Source: an uncultured Rhodospirillales bacterium (lineage in GTDB: Bacteria; Pseudomonadota; Alphaproteobacteria; Acetobacterales; Acetobacteraceae). From it: a stretch of 64,000 nucleotides of DNA. The stretch is taken from the NCBI GenBank assembly GCA_903865895.1, contig CAIPLM010000079.1, positions 1 through 64,000 of the forward strand, written 5' to 3'. The position numbers and the translations under genes are program-made. This document shows, in pieces, positions 8,081 to 34,579 of this stretch. Positions within the stretch are counted from its first letter, which is position 1. Each line of letters opens with the position of its first letter. The notes under the pieces were generated by a model. That model saw only the letters and a list, made by a program, of their open reading frames with translations. It was not told the origin of the DNA and ran no database searches.

Positions 8081-8400
8081 TGCCGCGCGCCACGGCTATG
8101 GACGAGGACACCCCGGCGCAGGAGGCCGCGCGTGTGGCGCAGGCCGAGCGGGCTGCACTGGCGGCCACCATCAAGGCCCTGGCGCGCGTCACGATGCCGG
8201 TGGGGCATGGCGATAAGCATCGCCGCAGGCGGCTCTTAGCTGCCGATTTGGACCGCCTTAGCCGCGAGGACCGCGAGACGCTGGAGCGCCTGGCCTGGCG
8301 CTACCGCCGGCAGATGCCGCGCCACCTGGTGCCGGCGATGAACCCCGATGACCCGATCGTTCGCGAGACGAGGAGCCGCCCCGATGCCAGACCTGTTTGA
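8080..8400 (+). CDS. hypothetical phage protein
   Basis: 106 residues from the ATG just after the portal GTGA junction. It is strongly helical and basic, with a KHRRRRLL cluster at about residue 46 and a RLAWRYRRQMP helix at about 75. No recognised domain. It overlaps the downstream muramidase start by 17 bases, so it is probably co-translated. Confidence 0.5.
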   Translation: MPRATAMDEDTPAQEAARVAQAERAALAATIKALARVTMPVGHGDKHRRRRLLAADLDRLSREDRETLERLAWRYRRQMPRHLVPAMNPDDPIVRETRSRPDARPV

Positions 8401-9037
8401 CCGCTGCCACGCCGCGCTGATGGTGCATGAGGTCGCTGCTGATCCGATGGACCCCAAGCTGTGGACCGGTGGCGCGGTGGGCGACGGCGAGTTCATGGCG
8501 CCGAATGGCGGGCTCGACCTGAACGCGGCAGACCGCGGCAACTGGACCGGCGGCAGCATCGGCTCCGGCCTTCTCGGCGGCACGCGCTGGGGCATCTCGA
8601 CAGCAGCCTATCCCGACTTGCTGAAATCCATGCCGGGCCAGATCCAGGGCAGCTACCCGACCCTGGTGAAGGACCTCCCATTCCGGCGCGCCAAGGACCT
8701 GGCGCGCTATGCCTTCTGGGACAAGCTCCGCTGCGCCGAGTTGCCGGGCCCGGTGGCGCTGCTGCAACTCGACGACGGGTTCAACACCGGCGTCGGCGCG
8801 GCGATCGGCCGGCTGCAATCCGCTGTCGGCGCGAAGAAGGATGGCGTGTTCGGTACCGGTACCATGACCGCCGTGCAGGCGCAGCTCGCACGCGGCGGTG
8901 CTGTGGCGCTGGCGCGGGAACTGCTGGCGCTGCGGATCGACGCCATGGCGATGAGCGCGCAGTGGCCCGTCTTCGGGCTCGGCTGGTCGCGCCGGCTGGC
9001 CAAGCTGCCGTTCCAGGCGATGGCGCTCGCCGCATGA
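8384..9037 (+). CDS. phage endolysin, GH108-type N-acetylmuramidase with peptidoglycan-binding domain
   Basis: 217 residues from the ATG following a GAGGAG box. The N-terminus FDRCHAALMVHE carries the glutamate expected as catalytic acid in GH108 enzymes. A glycine-rich region of about 45 residues leads to RWGIS, corresponding to the family's GIT/GIS motif, so the active-site loop appears enlarged. The C-terminal part (GAKKDGVFGTGTMTAVQA) is a PG_binding_3-like domain. It should cleave cell-wall glycan during lysis. It has no signal peptide, so it needs a holin or another export route. Confidence 0.75.
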   Translation: MPDLFDRCHAALMVHEVAADPMDPKLWTGGAVGDGEFMAPNGGLDLNAADRGNWTGGSIGSGLLGGTRWGISTAAYPDLLKSMPGQIQGSYPTLVKDLPFRRAKDLARYAFWDKLRCAELPGPVALLQLDDGFNTGVGAAIGRLQSAVGAKKDGVFGTGTMTAVQAQLARGGAVALARELLALRIDAMAMSAQWPVFGLGWSRRLAKLPFQAMALAA

Positions 9038-23526: not shown

Positions 23527-26496
23527 ATGTTCGCGCAACCCAAGACCCAGAAAACCCAGCCCGACAGTTCCATGCGGGTGCAGACGTCGATCGCAGGCAA
23601 GGCGGTTGCGCTGGGCTGGGGGAAGGCGCGGCTCGCCGGCAACCTGCTGTGGTATGGCGACTTCAAGGCGACGCAGACCGCGGCGGCCGGCGGCAAGGGC
23701 GGCGGCGGCAAGGCCGGCAGCGGGCAATACAGCTACAGCGCCTCGGTGGTCATCGGCCTCTGCGAGGGGCCCATCGCCGCCTTCGGCCAGATCTGGAACA
23801 ACAGCACGCCCACCACCCTGGCCTCGCTCTCGCTGAGTGGGCTGGTCGGCAGCTATTCCGCGAGCGCCTGGTCCTACCTCACCTCGGCCTACCCGGCGCA
23901 GGCGCTGGCCTATCGCGGTCTGGCCAACGCCGTGGCGGCCGGCATGCCGCTCGGCTCCTCCTCTTCGCTGCCCAACATCACCTTCGAGCTGCTGTTCGGC
24001 GTCAACGGTGCCATCGTCGGGCTGCCCGATGCGGACCCTGCGGCGGTGATGACCGACTTCCTGACCAACAGCGCCTATGGCGCCGGCTTCCCCTCGGCCA
24101 ATCTCGACAGCCTCACCGTCTGGTCGAACTACTGCATCGCGAACGGACTTCTCGTCTCTCCGGTGCTCACCGACCAACAGGAAGGGCGGCAGTTCCTGGC
24201 CGATCTGCTGGCCGCGACGAACGCGGAGGCCGTGTGGTCGAGCGGCGTGCTGACCGTGGTGCCCTACGGCGACCAGTCGATCACCGCCAACGGCCGCAGC
24301 TACACGGCGCCGAGCGCGCCGCTCTACAGCCTCACCGACATCGACTTCAAGGACCCGCAGGGCGGCAACAGCAACTCCATGGGCGGCACCTCGACCGACC
24401 CGGTGCAGTGCACCCGGCTGCGCCCGTCCGACCAGCGCAACAGCTTCGCCGTCGAGTATCTCGATCGCGCCAACAGCTACAACGCGACCGTAGTGACCGC
24501 GTCGGACGATGCCTCGATCCAGCTCTACGGGCTGCGCCGGGCCGACACCAAGACGCTGCACCTGTTCTGCAACCAGGCCGCCGCGCTGCTGAGCGCGCAG
24601 CTGATGCTGGGCCGCGAGGCCGTGCGCAACACCTACGCCTTCACCCTCGGCCCCGAATACATCCTGCTCGACCCGATGGACATCGTGGCGATCACCGACG
24701 CCGGGCTCGGCCTCGCGGCCCAATGGGTGCGAATCAAGGAGATCCAGGAGAACGCCGACGGCACGCTGTCCATCCAGGCCGAGGACATGCTGACCGGCGC
24801 CGGCTCCGCGCCGCTCTATGCTGCCCAGCCGGCGATGGGCGCGGGCGCCAACATGAACGCGACGCCAACCGGCGTGACCGCGCCGGTGATCTGGGAGCCC
24901 ACCTACGCCCTGGCCGAGGGCACCGAGATCTGGATCTCCGTCGCGTCCTCCGGCGCGAATTTCGGCGGCGCCGATATCTGGGTCTCCACCGACAACACCA
25001 CCTATCAGCTCGCCGGCACGTTCCATGGCGAGAGCCGGATGGGTGTCACCACCGCATCGCTGCCGTCGGTTTCGGCCGCGCCCACCGGGCCAACGGTGGA
25101 CGCCACCAACAGCCTCGCCGTCGACATGGCCGAGAGCGCCACGCAACTGATCAGCGGCACCCAGGCCGACGCGCTGGCCGGCAATACCCTGGCCTATGTG
25201 AACGGCGAGTATCTCGCCTTCCAGACGGCGACGCTGACCAGCGGCACGGCCTATTCGCTGTCCTACCTGGTGCGCGGCATGTTCGGTTCCTCACCGGTGG
25301 GCGCCCCATCCGGCTCGCAGTTCGTCCGCCTCAGCCCCGGCACCTATTTCCGCTACCCGATCACTGCGGACCGCATCGGCAGCCCGCTGTGGTTCAAGGT
25401 GCTGCCGTTCAACGCCTATGGCGGCGGCCAGCCGGCGCTCTCCGCCATCGCCGCCTATGGCTACACCGTCACCGGCGTGGCGCTGGCGGGCACGCTGGCG
25501 GCGCCGGCCAACCTCACCACCAGCTACGTCGCCGCATACACCTATCTGACCTGGACCGAGGTGAGCGATTTCCGGGTGCCGCAATACGAGATCCGCAAGG
25601 GCTCGTCCTGGGCCGGCGGGCAGAAGCTCGGCACGGTGGCGCATCCGCCCTTCCTGGTCTTCGGCAACGACACTTATTGGGTGGCCGCCGTGGCGACGCC
25701 GACTGCCGGCCTCACCGTCTATTCCACCCCGGTGTCCCTGACGATCTCCGGGGCGGCGATCGTCGCCAACACGCTGGCCACCTGGGACGAGGCGGCGACG
25801 AGCTGGACCGGCACGCGCACCGGCGGTGTGGTGGTGGGCAGCGGCATCGTCACCACCTCGGACCTCGGCGCGGGCCAGGTCGGTGGCGTCTACGAGATCC
25901 CGACCGGCCACCAGATCGACGTCGGCCGCGCCTGCGCCTGCAACGTGCTGATCAACTGGACGAGCTCGGGCTATCCGGCGGGCCAGAACGTGCTGGCCAC
26001 CACCAATTGGCTGGCGATGACGGATCTGCTGGGCGCCGCGGCGGCGCAGAGCGCCTCGGTCTATCCCGAGATCGCTATCAGCCAGGACGGCACGACGTGG
26101 GGAGCCTGGCAGCGTTTCGTGCCCGGCGCCTATGTGGGCCGCAAGTTCAAGGCCCGCATGCAGGTGCAGACGCTCGATCCCCAGGTGGCGGCCGCCCTGC
26201 TGAGCTTCACCTTCGCCGTCGCGCCGCCGCAGCGCGATGACCACATCATCGGCCTCTCCGTCGCCTCGGGCGGCACGGCGGTCACCTTCAAGCCGGATGG
26301 CAGCGGTACCACCGTGGCGTTCAACGGCGGCCCCGGCGGCGCCGCAACGCCTGCCGTTCAGGGCACCATCATCGGGGCATCCGGCGCCGACACGCTGGTG
26401 ATCAGCAGCCTCACGACCTCCGGCTGCACCGTGCAGGTGCTGAACGGCGGCTCCGGCGTCGCCCGCACCGTCAACCTTCTCGCACAGGGATACTAG
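23527..26496 (+). CDS. tail tip / host specificity protein
   Basis: 989 residues, the largest phage protein here. The N-terminal half has a glycine-rich loop (AAGGKGGGGKAGSG), then YSASVVIGLCEGPIAAFGQIW, the conserved block of the J-like tip family. Residues about 215-300 resemble a phage-tail_3 hub domain (EGRQFLADLLAATNAEAVW). The C-terminal 500 residues contain fibronectin-type beta modules (LTTSYVAAYTYLTWTEVSDF) and a final Gly/Thr-rich domain, the likely receptor-binding part. Confidence 0.85.
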   Translation: MFAQPKTQKTQPDSSMRVQTSIAGKAVALGWGKARLAGNLLWYGDFKATQTAAAGGKGGGGKAGSGQYSYSASVVIGLCEGPIAAFGQIWNNSTPTTLASLSLSGLVGSYSASAWSYLTSAYPAQALAYRGLANAVAAGMPLGSSSSLPNITFELLFGVNGAIVGLPDADPAAVMTDFLTNSAYGAGFPSANLDSLTVWSNYCIANGLLVSPVLTDQQEGRQFLADLLAATNAEAVWSSGVLTVVPYGDQSITANGRSYTAPSAPLYSLTDIDFKDPQGGNSNSMGGTSTDPVQCTRLRPSDQRNSFAVEYLDRANSYNATVVTASDDASIQLYGLRRADTKTLHLFCNQAAALLSAQLMLGREAVRNTYAFTLGPEYILLDPMDIVAITDAGLGLAAQWVRIKEIQENADGTLSIQAEDMLTGAGSAPLYAAQPAMGAGANMNATPTGVTAPVIWEPTYALAEGTEIWISVASSGANFGGADIWVSTDNTTYQLAGTFHGESRMGVTTASLPSVSAAPTGPTVDATNSLAVDMAESATQLISGTQADALAGNTLAYVNGEYLAFQTATLTSGTAYSLSYLVRGMFGSSPVGAPSGSQFVRLSPGTYFRYPITADRIGSPLWFKVLPFNAYGGGQPALSAIAAYGYTVTGVALAGTLAAPANLTTSYVAAYTYLTWTEVSDFRVPQYEIRKGSSWAGGQKLGTVAHPPFLVFGNDTYWVAAVATPTAGLTVYSTPVSLTISGAAIVANTLATWDEAATSWTGTRTGGVVVGSGIVTTSDLGAGQVGGVYEIPTGHQIDVGRACACNVLINWTSSGYPAGQNVLATTNWLAMTDLLGAAAAQSASVYPEIAISQDGTTWGAWQRFVPGAYVGRKFKARMQVQTLDPQVAAALLSFTFAVAPPQRDDHIIGLSVASGGTAVTFKPDGSGTTVAFNGGPGGAATPAVQGTIIGASGADTLVISSLTTSGCTVQVLNGGSGVARTVNLLAQGY

Positions 26497-26498
26497 GC

Positions 26499-27248
26499 AT
26501 GCCGTCGCTCGTCATCGCCACCACCGGCACCATCTCGGGCGTCGCCGAGAACACGCAGATCAACGCGATCGCCGCCTCGCTGGCTACCGCGCAGCAGTCC
26601 AGCACGGCGCCCACCACCACCTCGACGGGCCTGTCGTCGATGGCCGGGGTGTGGTGGCACAACCTGACCGACAACACGATCCGCGTGCGCGACCAGGCGG
26701 ACAGCGCCTGGATCACCATCGGCACGCTGAACGAGACGGCGAAGACCTTCGCGCCCGCTGGCAGCTCGGGCTCCTATCTGGCTTTGTCCGGCGGCACGCT
26801 GACCGCGGGGCTCACGGTGCAATCGGGAGGCATCAGCATCACCGCAGGCGGTCTCGCGGTTACCGCGGGCGGCATGACGATCGGCGGCAATAGCTCCGTC
26901 ACCGGCACGTTCAGCGCCAGCGGCGCGGTGACCTTTTCCAGCACGGGGAGCTTCGGCGGCAACGTGACTGCGGCCGGGCAGATATTCTCGTCATCCGGCG
27001 GCTTCAAGTTCCCGGACAACTCGGTGCAGACCACCGCCTTCACCGGCTCCGGCTATGCGCTCACTTCGTCGCTGGCGAGCTATGCACCGCTTGCTTCGCC
27101 TGCGCTCACCGGGACGCCTACGGCGCCGACGGCGGCAATCTCGGACAGCTCGACGACGCTCGCGACCACCGCGTTCGTGCATGCTGTGATCCTCGCCGCG
27201 CTCACCAGCTACGCCGGCAGCGGCGTCCCCAGCGGCGGCACGGGCTGA
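26499..27248 (+). CDS. tail fibre-like protein
   Basis: 249 residues. Central repeats alternate short glycine/threonine strands (GGISITAGGLAVTAGGMTIGG), typical of fibre shafts. KFPDNSVQTTAF near residue 170 and ALTGTPTAPTAA followed by TTLATTAFV near 205-225 are common phage fibre motifs. It is expected to trimerise. It follows the tip gene by two bases. No chaperone gene of the usual kind is seen. Confidence 0.8.
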   Translation: MPSLVIATTGTISGVAENTQINAIAASLATAQQSSTAPTTTSTGLSSMAGVWWHNLTDNTIRVRDQADSAWITIGTLNETAKTFAPAGSSGSYLALSGGTLTAGLTVQSGGISITAGGLAVTAGGMTIGGNSSVTGTFSASGAVTFSSTGSFGGNVTAAGQIFSSSGGFKFPDNSVQTTAFTGSGYALTSSLASYAPLASPALTGTPTAPTAAISDSSTTLATTAFVHAVILAALTSYAGSGVPSGGTG

Positions 27249-27328: not shown

Positions 27329-27877
27329 ATGATCCGGCTTCTCTTCCTGCTTTTAGCAATTCTGCTCGCCGGTGAGGCCCGAGCCCAGAACGGCCAAAAC
27401 TACAATAGCTGCACGCAGTCCGCGGTGATCAACTGCCCGCGCGCACCGATCTGGGCGGTGCCGCCGGTGCTGACCGGCAGCGTCGACTACGTCACCCAGA
27501 CCCCTTACGGCGGCCTGCGCGTCCAGCTGCAGGATGGCGTCGGGAACGACCTGGCGCCCATCACGCCGGTTGCGACCACGTCGCTTGCGTCGAGTCTCGT
27601 GCTGAAGGCGGCGCCTGGTCAGCTCTACTCGGCCACCGTGACCACCAGCACGACGCCGGGTTACGTCATGGTGTTGAATGCCACCGCGCCACCGGCCGAC
27701 GGTGCGGTCACCCCGTGGTTCTGCTTCTACATGCAGCCCCTCTCGTCGCAGTCCTTCGGCAGCTTCGGGGCACCGGCTGACCTCTACACCATCGGCATCA
27801 CCGTCGTGTTCTCGACAACCGGCTGCCTCACCAAGACGGCATCGGCGACCGCGTTCATCTCGGGGAGCGTGCGATGA
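27329..27877 (+). CDS. exported hypothetical protein in tail-fibre locus
   Basis: 182 residues from the ATG best spaced from AGAGG (27318-27322); in-frame ATG 27326 and GTG 27323 are alternatives. A clear Sec signal peptide (MIRLLFLLLAILLAGEARA, cleavage before QNGQN) leads to a beta-rich mature part with cysteines at CTQSAVINC and in the second half. It resembles periplasmic or surface proteins rather than virion parts. Its stop overlaps the next gene (ATGA). Function unknown. Confidence 0.6.
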   Translation: MIRLLFLLLAILLAGEARAQNGQNYNSCTQSAVINCPRAPIWAVPPVLTGSVDYVTQTPYGGLRVQLQDGVGNDLAPITPVATTSLASSLVLKAAPGQLYSATVTTSTTPGYVMVLNATAPPADGAVTPWFCFYMQPLSSQSFGSFGAPADLYTIGITVVFSTTGCLTKTASATAFISGSVR

Positions 27878-29067
27878 CGGCGCGCTGTCTGCCGCGATGG
27901 CTGGCTGGAGCCACCTGCCGCCTCATCCTGGCATGGTGCGTCATTGCGCTGGGCGGCGGCGCGTTCCTCGCGCCCGATGCCGCAGCGAACATGCTCGGCC
28001 CGGCGAGCGGCTTCTCTGCCAGCTTCGCCGCAGCGCCTGAATTTGGCATCGCCATCGACGGCGATGTCACGATCAGCAGCGGGACGACGACGCTCTCGCG
28101 CGACATGCACTACCGGAACCTGACGATCTCGGGCACCGGCAAGATCGTCACCAACGGCTACGTCATCTACGTCTCCAATACACTCGACCTTTCGGGTGCT
28201 GGCGCTGCGGCGATCTCCAGCAACGGTGCAGCTGGCGGCGCGGCCAGCGGGGCTACCGGCGGATCAGCTGGCGCCGGTCAGTTCGGGCTCACCGTTCCGT
28301 CGACTCGGGTCGGGTCTGTGGGGACCACCGGCACAAGTGCCGCGGGAGCCGTCGGCACCCTCATCGGCGGCCAGACATGGGCATACGGCGGGGACACTGG
28401 CGCCAACGGTGCCGGGGGTGCCGGAACGAACGCTGCGGGTGCGTCCACTGCCGGCAGTTCTGTCACCCGGATCACCATCAATCCCGGGGTGTTCGTCGCT
28501 CCGATCGTCGCGGTCAACGCGGCGACAACCACAGGCGACGTGTGGGGTGGCGTCAGCGGCATTTCCGGGCCGTCGGGCGGCGGTGACGGGACCAATCCCG
28601 GCGGTGGTGGAGGCGGCGCTCCCTCCGCCGGTGGCTATGTCGCGATTCGCGCCTATGTCATCGCGCGTGGTTCGAATGCCACGGCGAGTATCATTCAGTC
28701 GATCGGCGGCGCCGGCGGTAACGGCGGCACGGTCTCCACGGGCAATGTCGGCGGCGGCGGCGGTGCATCTGGCGCTGGCGGCGGTGGGATTGATATCGTC
28801 GCCTATGCCATGAGCGGCAGCACGATCCCGAACGCGCTCGACGCAAGCGGTGGGACTGGAGGCAATGGCGGCAACGGCGCGGGTACCGGTCTTGGCGGCA
28901 ACGGCGGCACCGGTGGGAAGGGCGGCGCGATCAAGGTGGCAATCCTCGGTGGCACTCCCTCGCTCACCTATAACACTGCCAACATCGCTGGCACGGCCGG
29001 CTCGACAACGGCGACCGCCACCGGCGCGGCCGGTGGCGCTGGCGCATCATCCCGCGCGAACTTGTGA
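27874..29067 (+). CDS. glycine-rich exported protein in tail-fibre locus
   Basis: 397 residues. The N-terminus has a basic start and hydrophobic helix (LILAWCVIALGGGAFL) ending near DAAAN, a likely signal peptide. Then come short beta segments (HYRNLTISGTGKIVTNGYVIYV) and about 250 residues of Gly/Ala/Ser-rich repeats (such as GGNGGNGAG and GGGGGAS). Such glycine-rich stretches occur in phage fibre tips and in surface adhesins. It is coupled to the previous exported protein. A receptor-binding tip or a surface-modifying role are both possible. Confidence 0.6.
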   Translation: MTARCLPRWLAGATCRLILAWCVIALGGGAFLAPDAAANMLGPASGFSASFAAAPEFGIAIDGDVTISSGTTTLSRDMHYRNLTISGTGKIVTNGYVIYVSNTLDLSGAGAAAISSNGAAGGAASGATGGSAGAGQFGLTVPSTRVGSVGTTGTSAAGAVGTLIGGQTWAYGGDTGANGAGGAGTNAAGASTAGSSVTRITINPGVFVAPIVAVNAATTTGDVWGGVSGISGPSGGGDGTNPGGGGGGAPSAGGYVAIRAYVIARGSNATASIIQSIGGAGGNGGTVSTGNVGGGGGASGAGGGGIDIVAYAMSGSTIPNALDASGGTGGNGGNGAGTGLGGNGGTGGKGGAIKVAILGGTPSLTYNTANIAGTAGSTTATATGAAGGAGASSRANL

Positions 29068-29073
29068 GGAATT

Positions 29074-29523
29074 ATGAGCACGATCACAGATGCTTTCGGG
29101 CGCACCGTCACCAAGACCTCGATCAACGCTCAGACGACGTATTCGGTCCCTCTTCAGGACGGTATTTTCACCGTCACGCAAGAGGGCGATGGCGACGATG
29201 GGGCCGCGTTGACGACCATCAACGCCATGGGGTCGCCCCCGGCGCCGGATACACGTCAAGCCGTGCCTGACGTGGTGACCTTGTGGAAGGCGAAGGCGGT
29301 TCTCGCCGCACAGCCGTCGAAACTGCATCCGGGGAAGACGCTGCTCGACGATGCGACCGCCGTCATCGCGGCGGCCCCCCAGATGGTCCAGATCGCATGG
29401 GCCAACGCTGCCGATCTGGAGCGGACCAGTGCAACGCTGGGCCTGTTGGCGAGCGAGATCGGCCTGACCTCCTCAGATCTCGACACATTATTTGTGGCGG
29501 CAGACGCATTCGTGTTGCCCTGA
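29074..29523 (+). CDS. hypothetical phage protein at end of tail locus
   Basis: 149 residues. A short beta-rich start (ITDAFGRTVTKTSINAQTTYSV) is followed by a helical domain from VVTLWKAKAVLAAQ to the end. No family with known role is recognised; it could be a fibre-assembly helper by position. It is the last gene of the late block before three hairpins. Confidence 0.55.
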   Translation: MSTITDAFGRTVTKTSINAQTTYSVPLQDGIFTVTQEGDGDDGAALTTINAMGSPPAPDTRQAVPDVVTLWKAKAVLAAQPSKLHPGKTLLDDATAVIAAAPQMVQIAWANAADLERTSATLGLLASEIGLTSSDLDTLFVAADAFVLP

Positions 29524-29656: not shown

Positions 29657-30457
29657 ATGAGTGATTTCTCGCGCGTCGACCCTGTCGTGCCTGTGGCGCC
29701 CTGGGTCGGCGGCAAGCACCGACTGGCCAACCGCATCATCCCGCGACTCCAGGCGATCCCGCACAGCTGCTACGTCGAGCCGTTCATCGGGATGGGCGGG
29801 ATATTCCTACGCCGCCCGTGGCGGATAAAATCGGAGGTGATCAACGACCTCAGCACCGATGTGGTGAACCTGTTCCGGGTGCTCCAGCGCCACTTTAACG
29901 CGTTCATGGACATGCTGAAGTGGCAGATTACCTCCCGCGAGCAGTTCCTCCGCCTACGCGACCAGGACCCCGAGACCCTCACCGACCTGGAGCGCGCTGC
30001 CAGGTTCCTCTACCTTCAGCGCCTCTCATTCGGCGGCAAGACCGATCACGCCAGCTTCGGCACCACCACCACGCAATCCGCACGGTTCGACGTGCTGAAG
30101 CTGACCAGCATCCTGGAGGACGTCCACGAGCGCCTGTCCGGCGTGGTGATCGAGCGCTTGCCCTACGCCGATCTGATCAAGCGCTATGATCGCCCCACCA
30201 CGCTTTTCTATCTCGACCCGCCCTACTGGGGCTGCGAGGACTACTACGGCGAAGGGATGTTCGCCCGGCAGGACTTCGAACACATGGCGACCATCCTGAG
30301 CGCGATCAAGGGCCGCTTCGCGATGTCAATCAACGACACCCCGCAGATCCGCGAACTGTTCAAAACCTCCGAACTGGTCCCGCTGGAGGTGAGCTACAGC
30401 CTGACGCCGAAGGCTGCCGGCAAGAAGTTCGCCGAGCTGCTGATCATGAACCGCTAG
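29657..30457 (+). CDS. D12-class DNA adenine methylase
   Basis: 266 residues. Residues 15-20 (PWVGGK) are the SAM-binding PF-x-G-x-K-like motif of alpha-class adenine methylases. The catalytic motif DPPYWG lies at residues 187-192, and YVEPFIGMGG at about 35-44 completes the set. It methylates adenine-N6 in a short recognition site not predictable from sequence. It is the rightmost phage gene, where Mu carries the mom DNA-modification operon. An anti-restriction role is therefore likely. Confidence 0.88.
   Translation: MSDFSRVDPVVPVAPWVGGKHRLANRIIPRLQAIPHSCYVEPFIGMGGIFLRRPWRIKSEVINDLSTDVVNLFRVLQRHFNAFMDMLKWQITSREQFLRLRDQDPETLTDLERAARFLYLQRLSFGGKTDHASFGTTTTQSARFDVLKLTSILEDVHERLSGVVIERLPYADLIKRYDRPTTLFYLDPPYWGCEDYYGEGMFARQDFEHMATILSAIKGRFAMSINDTPQIRELFKTSELVPLEVSYSLTPKAAGKKFAELLIMNR

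Positions 30458-31909: not shown

Positions 31910-31913
<4 letters not shown>
30753..31913 (-). CDS. GT61-family (DUF563) glycosyltransferase
   Basis: 386 residues from a GTG that overlaps the ppdK stop (GTGA). Landmarks are LLGGNYENYYHWTLDGLGR (about residues 140-160), PRRIYIDRR, and the C-terminal VAPHGAGLANLVYARPGTML block typical of DUF563/GT61 enzymes. It probably transfers a sugar to a surface polysaccharide or glycan; donor and acceptor are unknown. Coupling to ppdK is odd, as the two have no clear shared pathway. Confidence 0.75.

Positions 31914-34579
<2,666 letters not shown>

Follow-up and report, generated by a model that had tools for sequence, protein, structure and literature searches.

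A prophage gene pair encoding fibre-like proteins with predicted export signals, and its relatives in uncultivated tailed phages

The first ~30.5 kb of the window (the whole stretch of 64,000 nucleotides analysed here) are occupied by a tailed prophage on the + strand. Behind its host-specificity and tail fibre genes, this prophage carries two coupled genes, P1 and P2, which are part of the late structural operon. The features of the region are the following.

4180, + strand: terminase gene
5759, + strand: portal gene
18265, + strand: tape measure gene
21992, + strand: tail assembly gene
23527-26496, + strand: gene of the Rcc01698/J-like host-specificity tail protein
26499-27248, + strand: tail fibre gene (PHROG tail fibre), without signal peptide, directly 5' of the P1-P2 pair
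27329-27877, + strand: P1, predicted exported beta-sandwich protein of 182 aa (from homologues and an AF2 model)
27329-27385, + strand: Sec signal peptide of P1, MIRLLFLLLAILLAGEARA, which recurs in homologues
27566-27874, + strand: conserved domain of P1, residues 80-182 (pLDDT of blocks mostly 90-96)
27722-27724, + strand: Cys132 of P1, first cysteine of the conserved pair
27824-27826, + strand: Cys166 of P1, second cysteine of the conserved pair
27874-27877, + strand: ATGA, in which the P2 start overlaps the P1 stop and the two genes are translationally coupled
27874-29067, + strand: P2, predicted exported Gly-rich protein of 397 aa
27874-27987, + strand: predicted Sec signal peptide of P2, cleavage after AAA (residue 38), with a homologue in L134/L008
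28042-29064, + strand: Gly-rich fibre-tip domain of P2, residues 57-397
29074-29523, + strand: third gene of the run, phrog_6034-like, without signal peptide

No promoter-like site was found between 26400 and 30600. The prophage ends on the right with a DNA methyltransferase gene (phrog_56, 29657-30457), and host genes follow beyond it, one of which (31910-34579) resembles ppdK by eye. An endolysin-like gene (phrog_315, 8348-9037) adjoins the portal gene and does not close the structural operon on its 3' side.

The P1 reading frame (27323/27329-27877) has GAGAGG in front of the ATG at 27329, and its N-terminus, MIRLLFLLLAILLAGEARA followed by QNG, is a textbook Sec signal of the SPI type, with an AxA site between ARA and QNG and a mean Kyte-Doolittle value of 3.57 in the h-region. 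The start of P2 lies inside the P1 stop (cgATGAcg), with GGGGAG upstream, and its N-terminus reads MTARCLPRWLAGATCRLILAWCVIALGGGAFLAPDAAA followed by NM. Under our heuristic rule, both proteins display the positive n-region, the uncharged h-region and the AxA-type site of signal peptidase I substrates. A lipobox is absent at the predicted cleavage site of either protein, and neither mature protein contains a transmembrane anchor. A sequence-only reading of this locus had described two coupled genes after the fibre gene, one with a Sec-type signal and one Gly-rich with an N-terminal signal; this description was confirmed, and the arrangement proved to be wider than claimed.

The AF2 model of P1 is a confident beta-sandwich over residues 80-182, with most 10-residue blocks scoring 90-96. 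The fold is common to 34 viral predicted proteins in BFVD, with uncharacterised phage proteins among them and the best match from Ralstonia phage RSK1, and the PDB fold search with P1 gave no match at E<1e-3. For P2, the model (pTM 0.74) shows confident strands plus Gly-rich regions, and the PDB search returned no match at all. In Pfam and PHROGs, no significant named family, nor any enzyme family, was obtained for P1 or P2.

Glycine makes up 25% of P2 overall and 27% of its mature part. Residues 44-397 align with the ends of long fibres at 45-51% identity, with E values down to 6e-56. In four genomes (G240, G018, G109, G207) the P2-type Gly-rich domain (45-49% identity) forms the C-terminus of tail fibres of 1500-1700 aa that lack a signal peptide. 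G257 has the domain as a stand-alone protein, and viral contigs have it attached to fibre-type N-termini; signal peptides are lacking in these cases as well. Homology to the fibre tips of same-family prophages covers the whole Gly-rich domain, but those tips have no signal peptide and would be cytoplasmic products, whereas P2 and its G090 homologue have a signal peptide and no trunk. As the P2-type domain ends long fibres in relatives, the P2 of the window is that tip, with a signal peptide replacing the trunk. The proteins are fibre- or adhesin-like, which supports part of the sequence-only reading. No P2 match was found in plasmids. Mature P2 has no cysteine, so that its export is argued from its signal peptide and from a single homologue.

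This homologue is located in the same family, in a Paracraurococcus MAG (G090, L134), where the second half of P1 and P2 are both matched in adjacent genes placed after a J-like gene. Their signal peptides, MIRLMIALALALAAQNIAHA and MRRWRLLAAFLAVLIGPAAPIFG, are divergent from those of the window, and the third gene also has a signal peptide, unlike the third gene of the window. A second prophage fragment of the window's own genome (C353) carries a P1 homologue and, behind it, an unrelated Gly-rich protein, both of them with a signal peptide; a near-identical copy of this arrangement (L007/L020, G000:C353) occurs in G208/L135. In G098, a signal-peptide P1 homologue is followed by a signal-peptide protein resembling, by eye, a beta-helix of the pectate-lyase type. 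A match to P1 in G103 was dropped, as it contained an internal stop and missed the family motif.

The P1 domain, of about 100 aa, occurs in no fewer than 92 IMG/VR contigs (80 fetched), and a second scan added 14 loci; in all, more than 100 uncultivated tailed-phage contigs have it. It is also present in a few alphaproteobacterial prophages, with copies in Sphingomonas melonis AS2.3 (L136) and in two MAGs of this class. The family is marked by the motifs PADGAVTP and VFSTTG[C/P], and the P1 of the window fits it, with a signal peptide and Cys132/Cys166. By contrast with this abundance in uncultivated phages, tblastn against 50,697 phage records gave no match for P1 relatives or P2, and a consensus query of the phage records gave as best match gp046 of Caulobacter phage KSC (E 0.08), which has no signal peptide. 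At the search sensitivity used, no cellular, non-phage P1 homologue was found. A partial match in Spirochaetes (L137) was discarded.

Roughly 70-80% of viral P1-family members have a signal peptide, as called by a simple home-made heuristic rule on approximate gene calls in metagenome contigs, and the rest have ordinary cytoplasmic N-termini. Only one P1 copy was present in 96 of 99 loci, so that an exported copy seems to take the place of a cytoplasmic one. The two forms also occur in P22-like loci, where the P1 gene sits among portal, capsid and neck genes (assigned by position and motif rather than by profile hits) and has a signal peptide in L053 and L136 and none in L097 and L100. At L111:7667-8986, a P1-type gene without signal peptide or cysteines is immediately followed by a divergent signal-peptide paralogue.

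The state of two cysteines follows that of the signal peptide. In a first sample, the pair was present in 60/60 signal-peptide members and in 0/15 others, counts reached after three members (L094, L077, L096) were moved to the signal-peptide class upon reading of their N-termini, whose signals the rule had missed; the reassignment was made with the cysteine state known and may flatter the contrast. For this reason, the cleaner test is a second sample, found by motifs that exclude the cysteines, in which the pair occurred in 3/5 signal-peptide members (the exceptions being L174 and L187) and in 0/7 others. Pooled, the pair is present in 63/65 signal-peptide members vs 0/22 others (Fisher p = 1.2e-18, kinship between sequences ignored). 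A few signal-peptide members use a neighbouring cysteine pair, and in members without signal peptide the cysteines are replaced, the second site being typically proline. A score of "1,0" for G098 was due to trimming, and its full sequence has both cysteines. On the weakly supported P1 tree (96 columns), the best topology calls for at least 9 changes of the signal-peptide label, and supported branches impose 3 of them. Across independent contrasts, the cysteine pair changes with the signal peptide in nearly all cases or shows no difference, and never changes in the opposite direction; the contrasts on supported branches number just three (sign test p = 0.25), which puts significance out of reach. 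The pair is a probable disulphide, judging from this pattern of residues.

A related bias was detected in the genes around P1. Among the genes of 80 P1 loci, cysteine counts were even in 99/108 signal-peptide genes vs 167/383 others (Fisher p = 5e-21), and the bias persisted when P1 family members were left out (p = 5e-17). Cysteine-free genes represented 1/112 of the signal-peptide genes vs 31% of the other genes in P1 loci. In control loci chosen by the P2 domain, signal-peptide calls fell to 5.6%, and cysteine parity was evenly split (3 even, 3 odd). The frequency of signal peptides peaks at P1 (0.61) and the next gene (0.37), and is about 0.03-0.14 at a distance of four genes or more. The gene after P1 had a signal peptide in 39/56 cases when P1 had one vs 3/14 otherwise (p = 0.0017). 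That gene is interchangeable, being Gly-rich, fibre-like or of the S74 type, and the neighbours matched PHROG tail-fibre families, S74 chaperone domains and Gly_rich_2. Runs of up to five signal-peptide genes were present in P1 loci, some encoding more than 1000 aa; at L077:4316-9423, for example, such genes occupy positions -3, -1, 0, +1 and +2 around P1.

These data bear on whether the hydrophobic N-termini are export signals at all. P1 and P2 could be ordinary cytoplasmic virion proteins that undergo neither export nor cleavage, their N-termini being structural, for example in tail anchoring, as would suit their position in the tail module and the occurrence of the P2 domain as a tail-fibre domain in relatives. 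This is highly improbable in view of the textbook n/h/c regions and AxA sites, of the family-wide tie to the cysteine pair, and of the parity bias of signal-peptide genes. Since the cysteine pair and the even cysteine counts track the signal peptide, export to an oxidising compartment is very likely real, and virus parts of this type very probably leave the cell interior before the burst. The export signals thus look as genuine as the sequence-only reading had supposed: they recur in divergent form in G090/L134 and through most of the P1 family, and are rare in the control loci.

Some neighbours are enzyme-like, which raises the question of whether the set consists of binders. The exported proteins could instead serve to open the envelope or the matrix at lysis, as the enzymes or helpers of a lysis accessory or depolymerase set. 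The arabinofuranosidase-type Pfam match of one neighbour and the pectate-lyase-like beta-helix seen by eye in G098 point in this direction, and an esterase of a Xanthomonas phage that bears a signal peptide has been interpreted along these lines (PMC10975493). Nevertheless, P1 and P2 match no enzyme family, and no PDB fold at E<1e-3, and the P2 domain is a fibre tip, which makes such a role improbable. A signal-peptide neighbour at L054:9676-10542 has a HEMMETMG stretch that resembles, by eye, a zinc metalloprotease motif.

The sequence-only reading had proposed that the lysogen displays both proteins on the host surface, for adhesion, biofilm effects or receptor masking. The signal peptides look genuine, and it is in prophages or bacterial contigs that the copies from the window, from G090, from C353 and from S. 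melonis are located, as lysogenic conversion would have it. A comparable position is known from lambda: in Lom-type systems, a signal-peptide gene lies between the tail host-specificity gene and the tail-fibre genes, and the lysogen makes Lom as a protein of the outer membrane. The likeness of P1 and P2 to Lom lies in a signal-peptide gene near tail host-specificity and fibre genes; they differ in having neither an anchor nor a promoter-like site. The folds to be compared are the outer-membrane beta-barrel of Lom-type proteins, the beta-sandwich of the P1 model and the strands with Gly-rich regions of the P2 model. The genes belong to a late operon, and the mature proteins have no membrane anchor. 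A tyrosine integrase was detected in 8/43 viral records with the cassette and not in 35/43, which may be incomplete, so there is no consistent link to an integrase. Both forms of P1 occupy a similar structural-gene slot, each in different phages. Lysogen-specific display is distinctly unlikely on these grounds, and of the roles proposed, receptor masking survives as a live rival.

Masking, or superinfection exclusion, would mean that fibre-tip-like proteins block the receptor, in the periplasm or after release, and spare the progeny from debris and infected cells. P2 is a fibre-tip domain without trunk, the operon is late, and the exported form is soluble. The cassette lies just 3' of the J-like and fibre genes, which is the slot of T5 llp and other exclusion lipoprotein genes (PMC9586334). 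T5 Llp and Cor are phage-encoded exported exclusion proteins whose gene is directly 3' of the receptor-binding gene (PMC9586334). P1 and P2 share with them phage origin, export (predicted for P1 and P2) and a position 3' of host-recognition genes. However, Llp and Cor are small lipoproteins, while P1 and P2 have type I signals and no lipobox, are larger, have fibre-like domains and show no detected homology to them. Against masking also stand the runs of up to five exported genes, some encoding more than 1000 aa, which far exceed the needs of a receptor plug, and the P22-like cassette, which sits among head and neck genes, away from the receptor-binding gene. Masking is thus possible, albeit rather unlikely.

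The best reading of the locus has the proteins act when the cell lyses or later, with virions or receptors as the target. As to which, we favour, with a probability of about 0.45, that P1 and P2 are exported, periplasm-folded versions of virion surface proteins that meet the virions at lysis. It is preferred over masking because the exported and cytoplasmic forms share the domain and the type of operon slot, and because the exported copy is usually the sole one; the same P1 domain or Gly-rich tip is made elsewhere without signal peptide, in a similar structural operon or at the end of a long fibre. P1 and P2 would be late tailed-prophage proteins that leave the cytoplasm through the Sec system of the host in the course of infection. 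In the periplasm, P1 would fold into a beta-sandwich subunit locked by a disulphide, and P2 into a Gly-rich fibre-tip domain, and their identity as exported versions of virion surface proteins is the less certain step. At lysis, the periplasmic pool would meet the virions and either decorate the particles or aid adsorption outside the cell. To our knowledge, no tailed phage loads virion parts from the periplasm, and an exported protein would be diluted at lysis, both of which count against virion loading. Extended to the whole set of uncultured tailed phages, the proposal is more tentative: Sec-exported, disulphide-bonded surface parts may join the particle at lysis, with repeated switches between cytoplasmic and exported forms in which the disulphide is gained or lost together with the signal.

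Gly-rich tip proteins are familiar in other phages. In T-even phages, the gene of gp38, a tip adhesin with poly-glycine, adjoins the fibre gene, and we know of no signal peptide in gp38-type adhesins. P2 resembles them in being Gly-rich and in having a domain that ends fibres in relatives, and differs from them by its signal peptide; P2 gave no family match and no PDB match. In one published account, the authors called several phage genes with signal peptides striking, and its passages on them do not connect these genes with fibre domains, with disulphides or with a switch between forms with and without the signal. No description of exported tail-fibre cassettes was found in the open literature, subscription papers being outside the scope of our search.

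Tailed phages are taught to build their virions wholly in the cytoplasm. The lack of a signal peptide has even been used as support for a phage origin of hypervariable binding proteins (PMC6199706). Fibre- and decoration-like genes of many uncultivated phages nevertheless have signal peptides, with cysteines that behave as in exported proteins. Either the virions of such phages would be finished outside the cytoplasm, or phages would commonly send out copies of surface modules of their own, to act on receptors. The families that occur both with and without a signal peptide may serve as matched natural controls.
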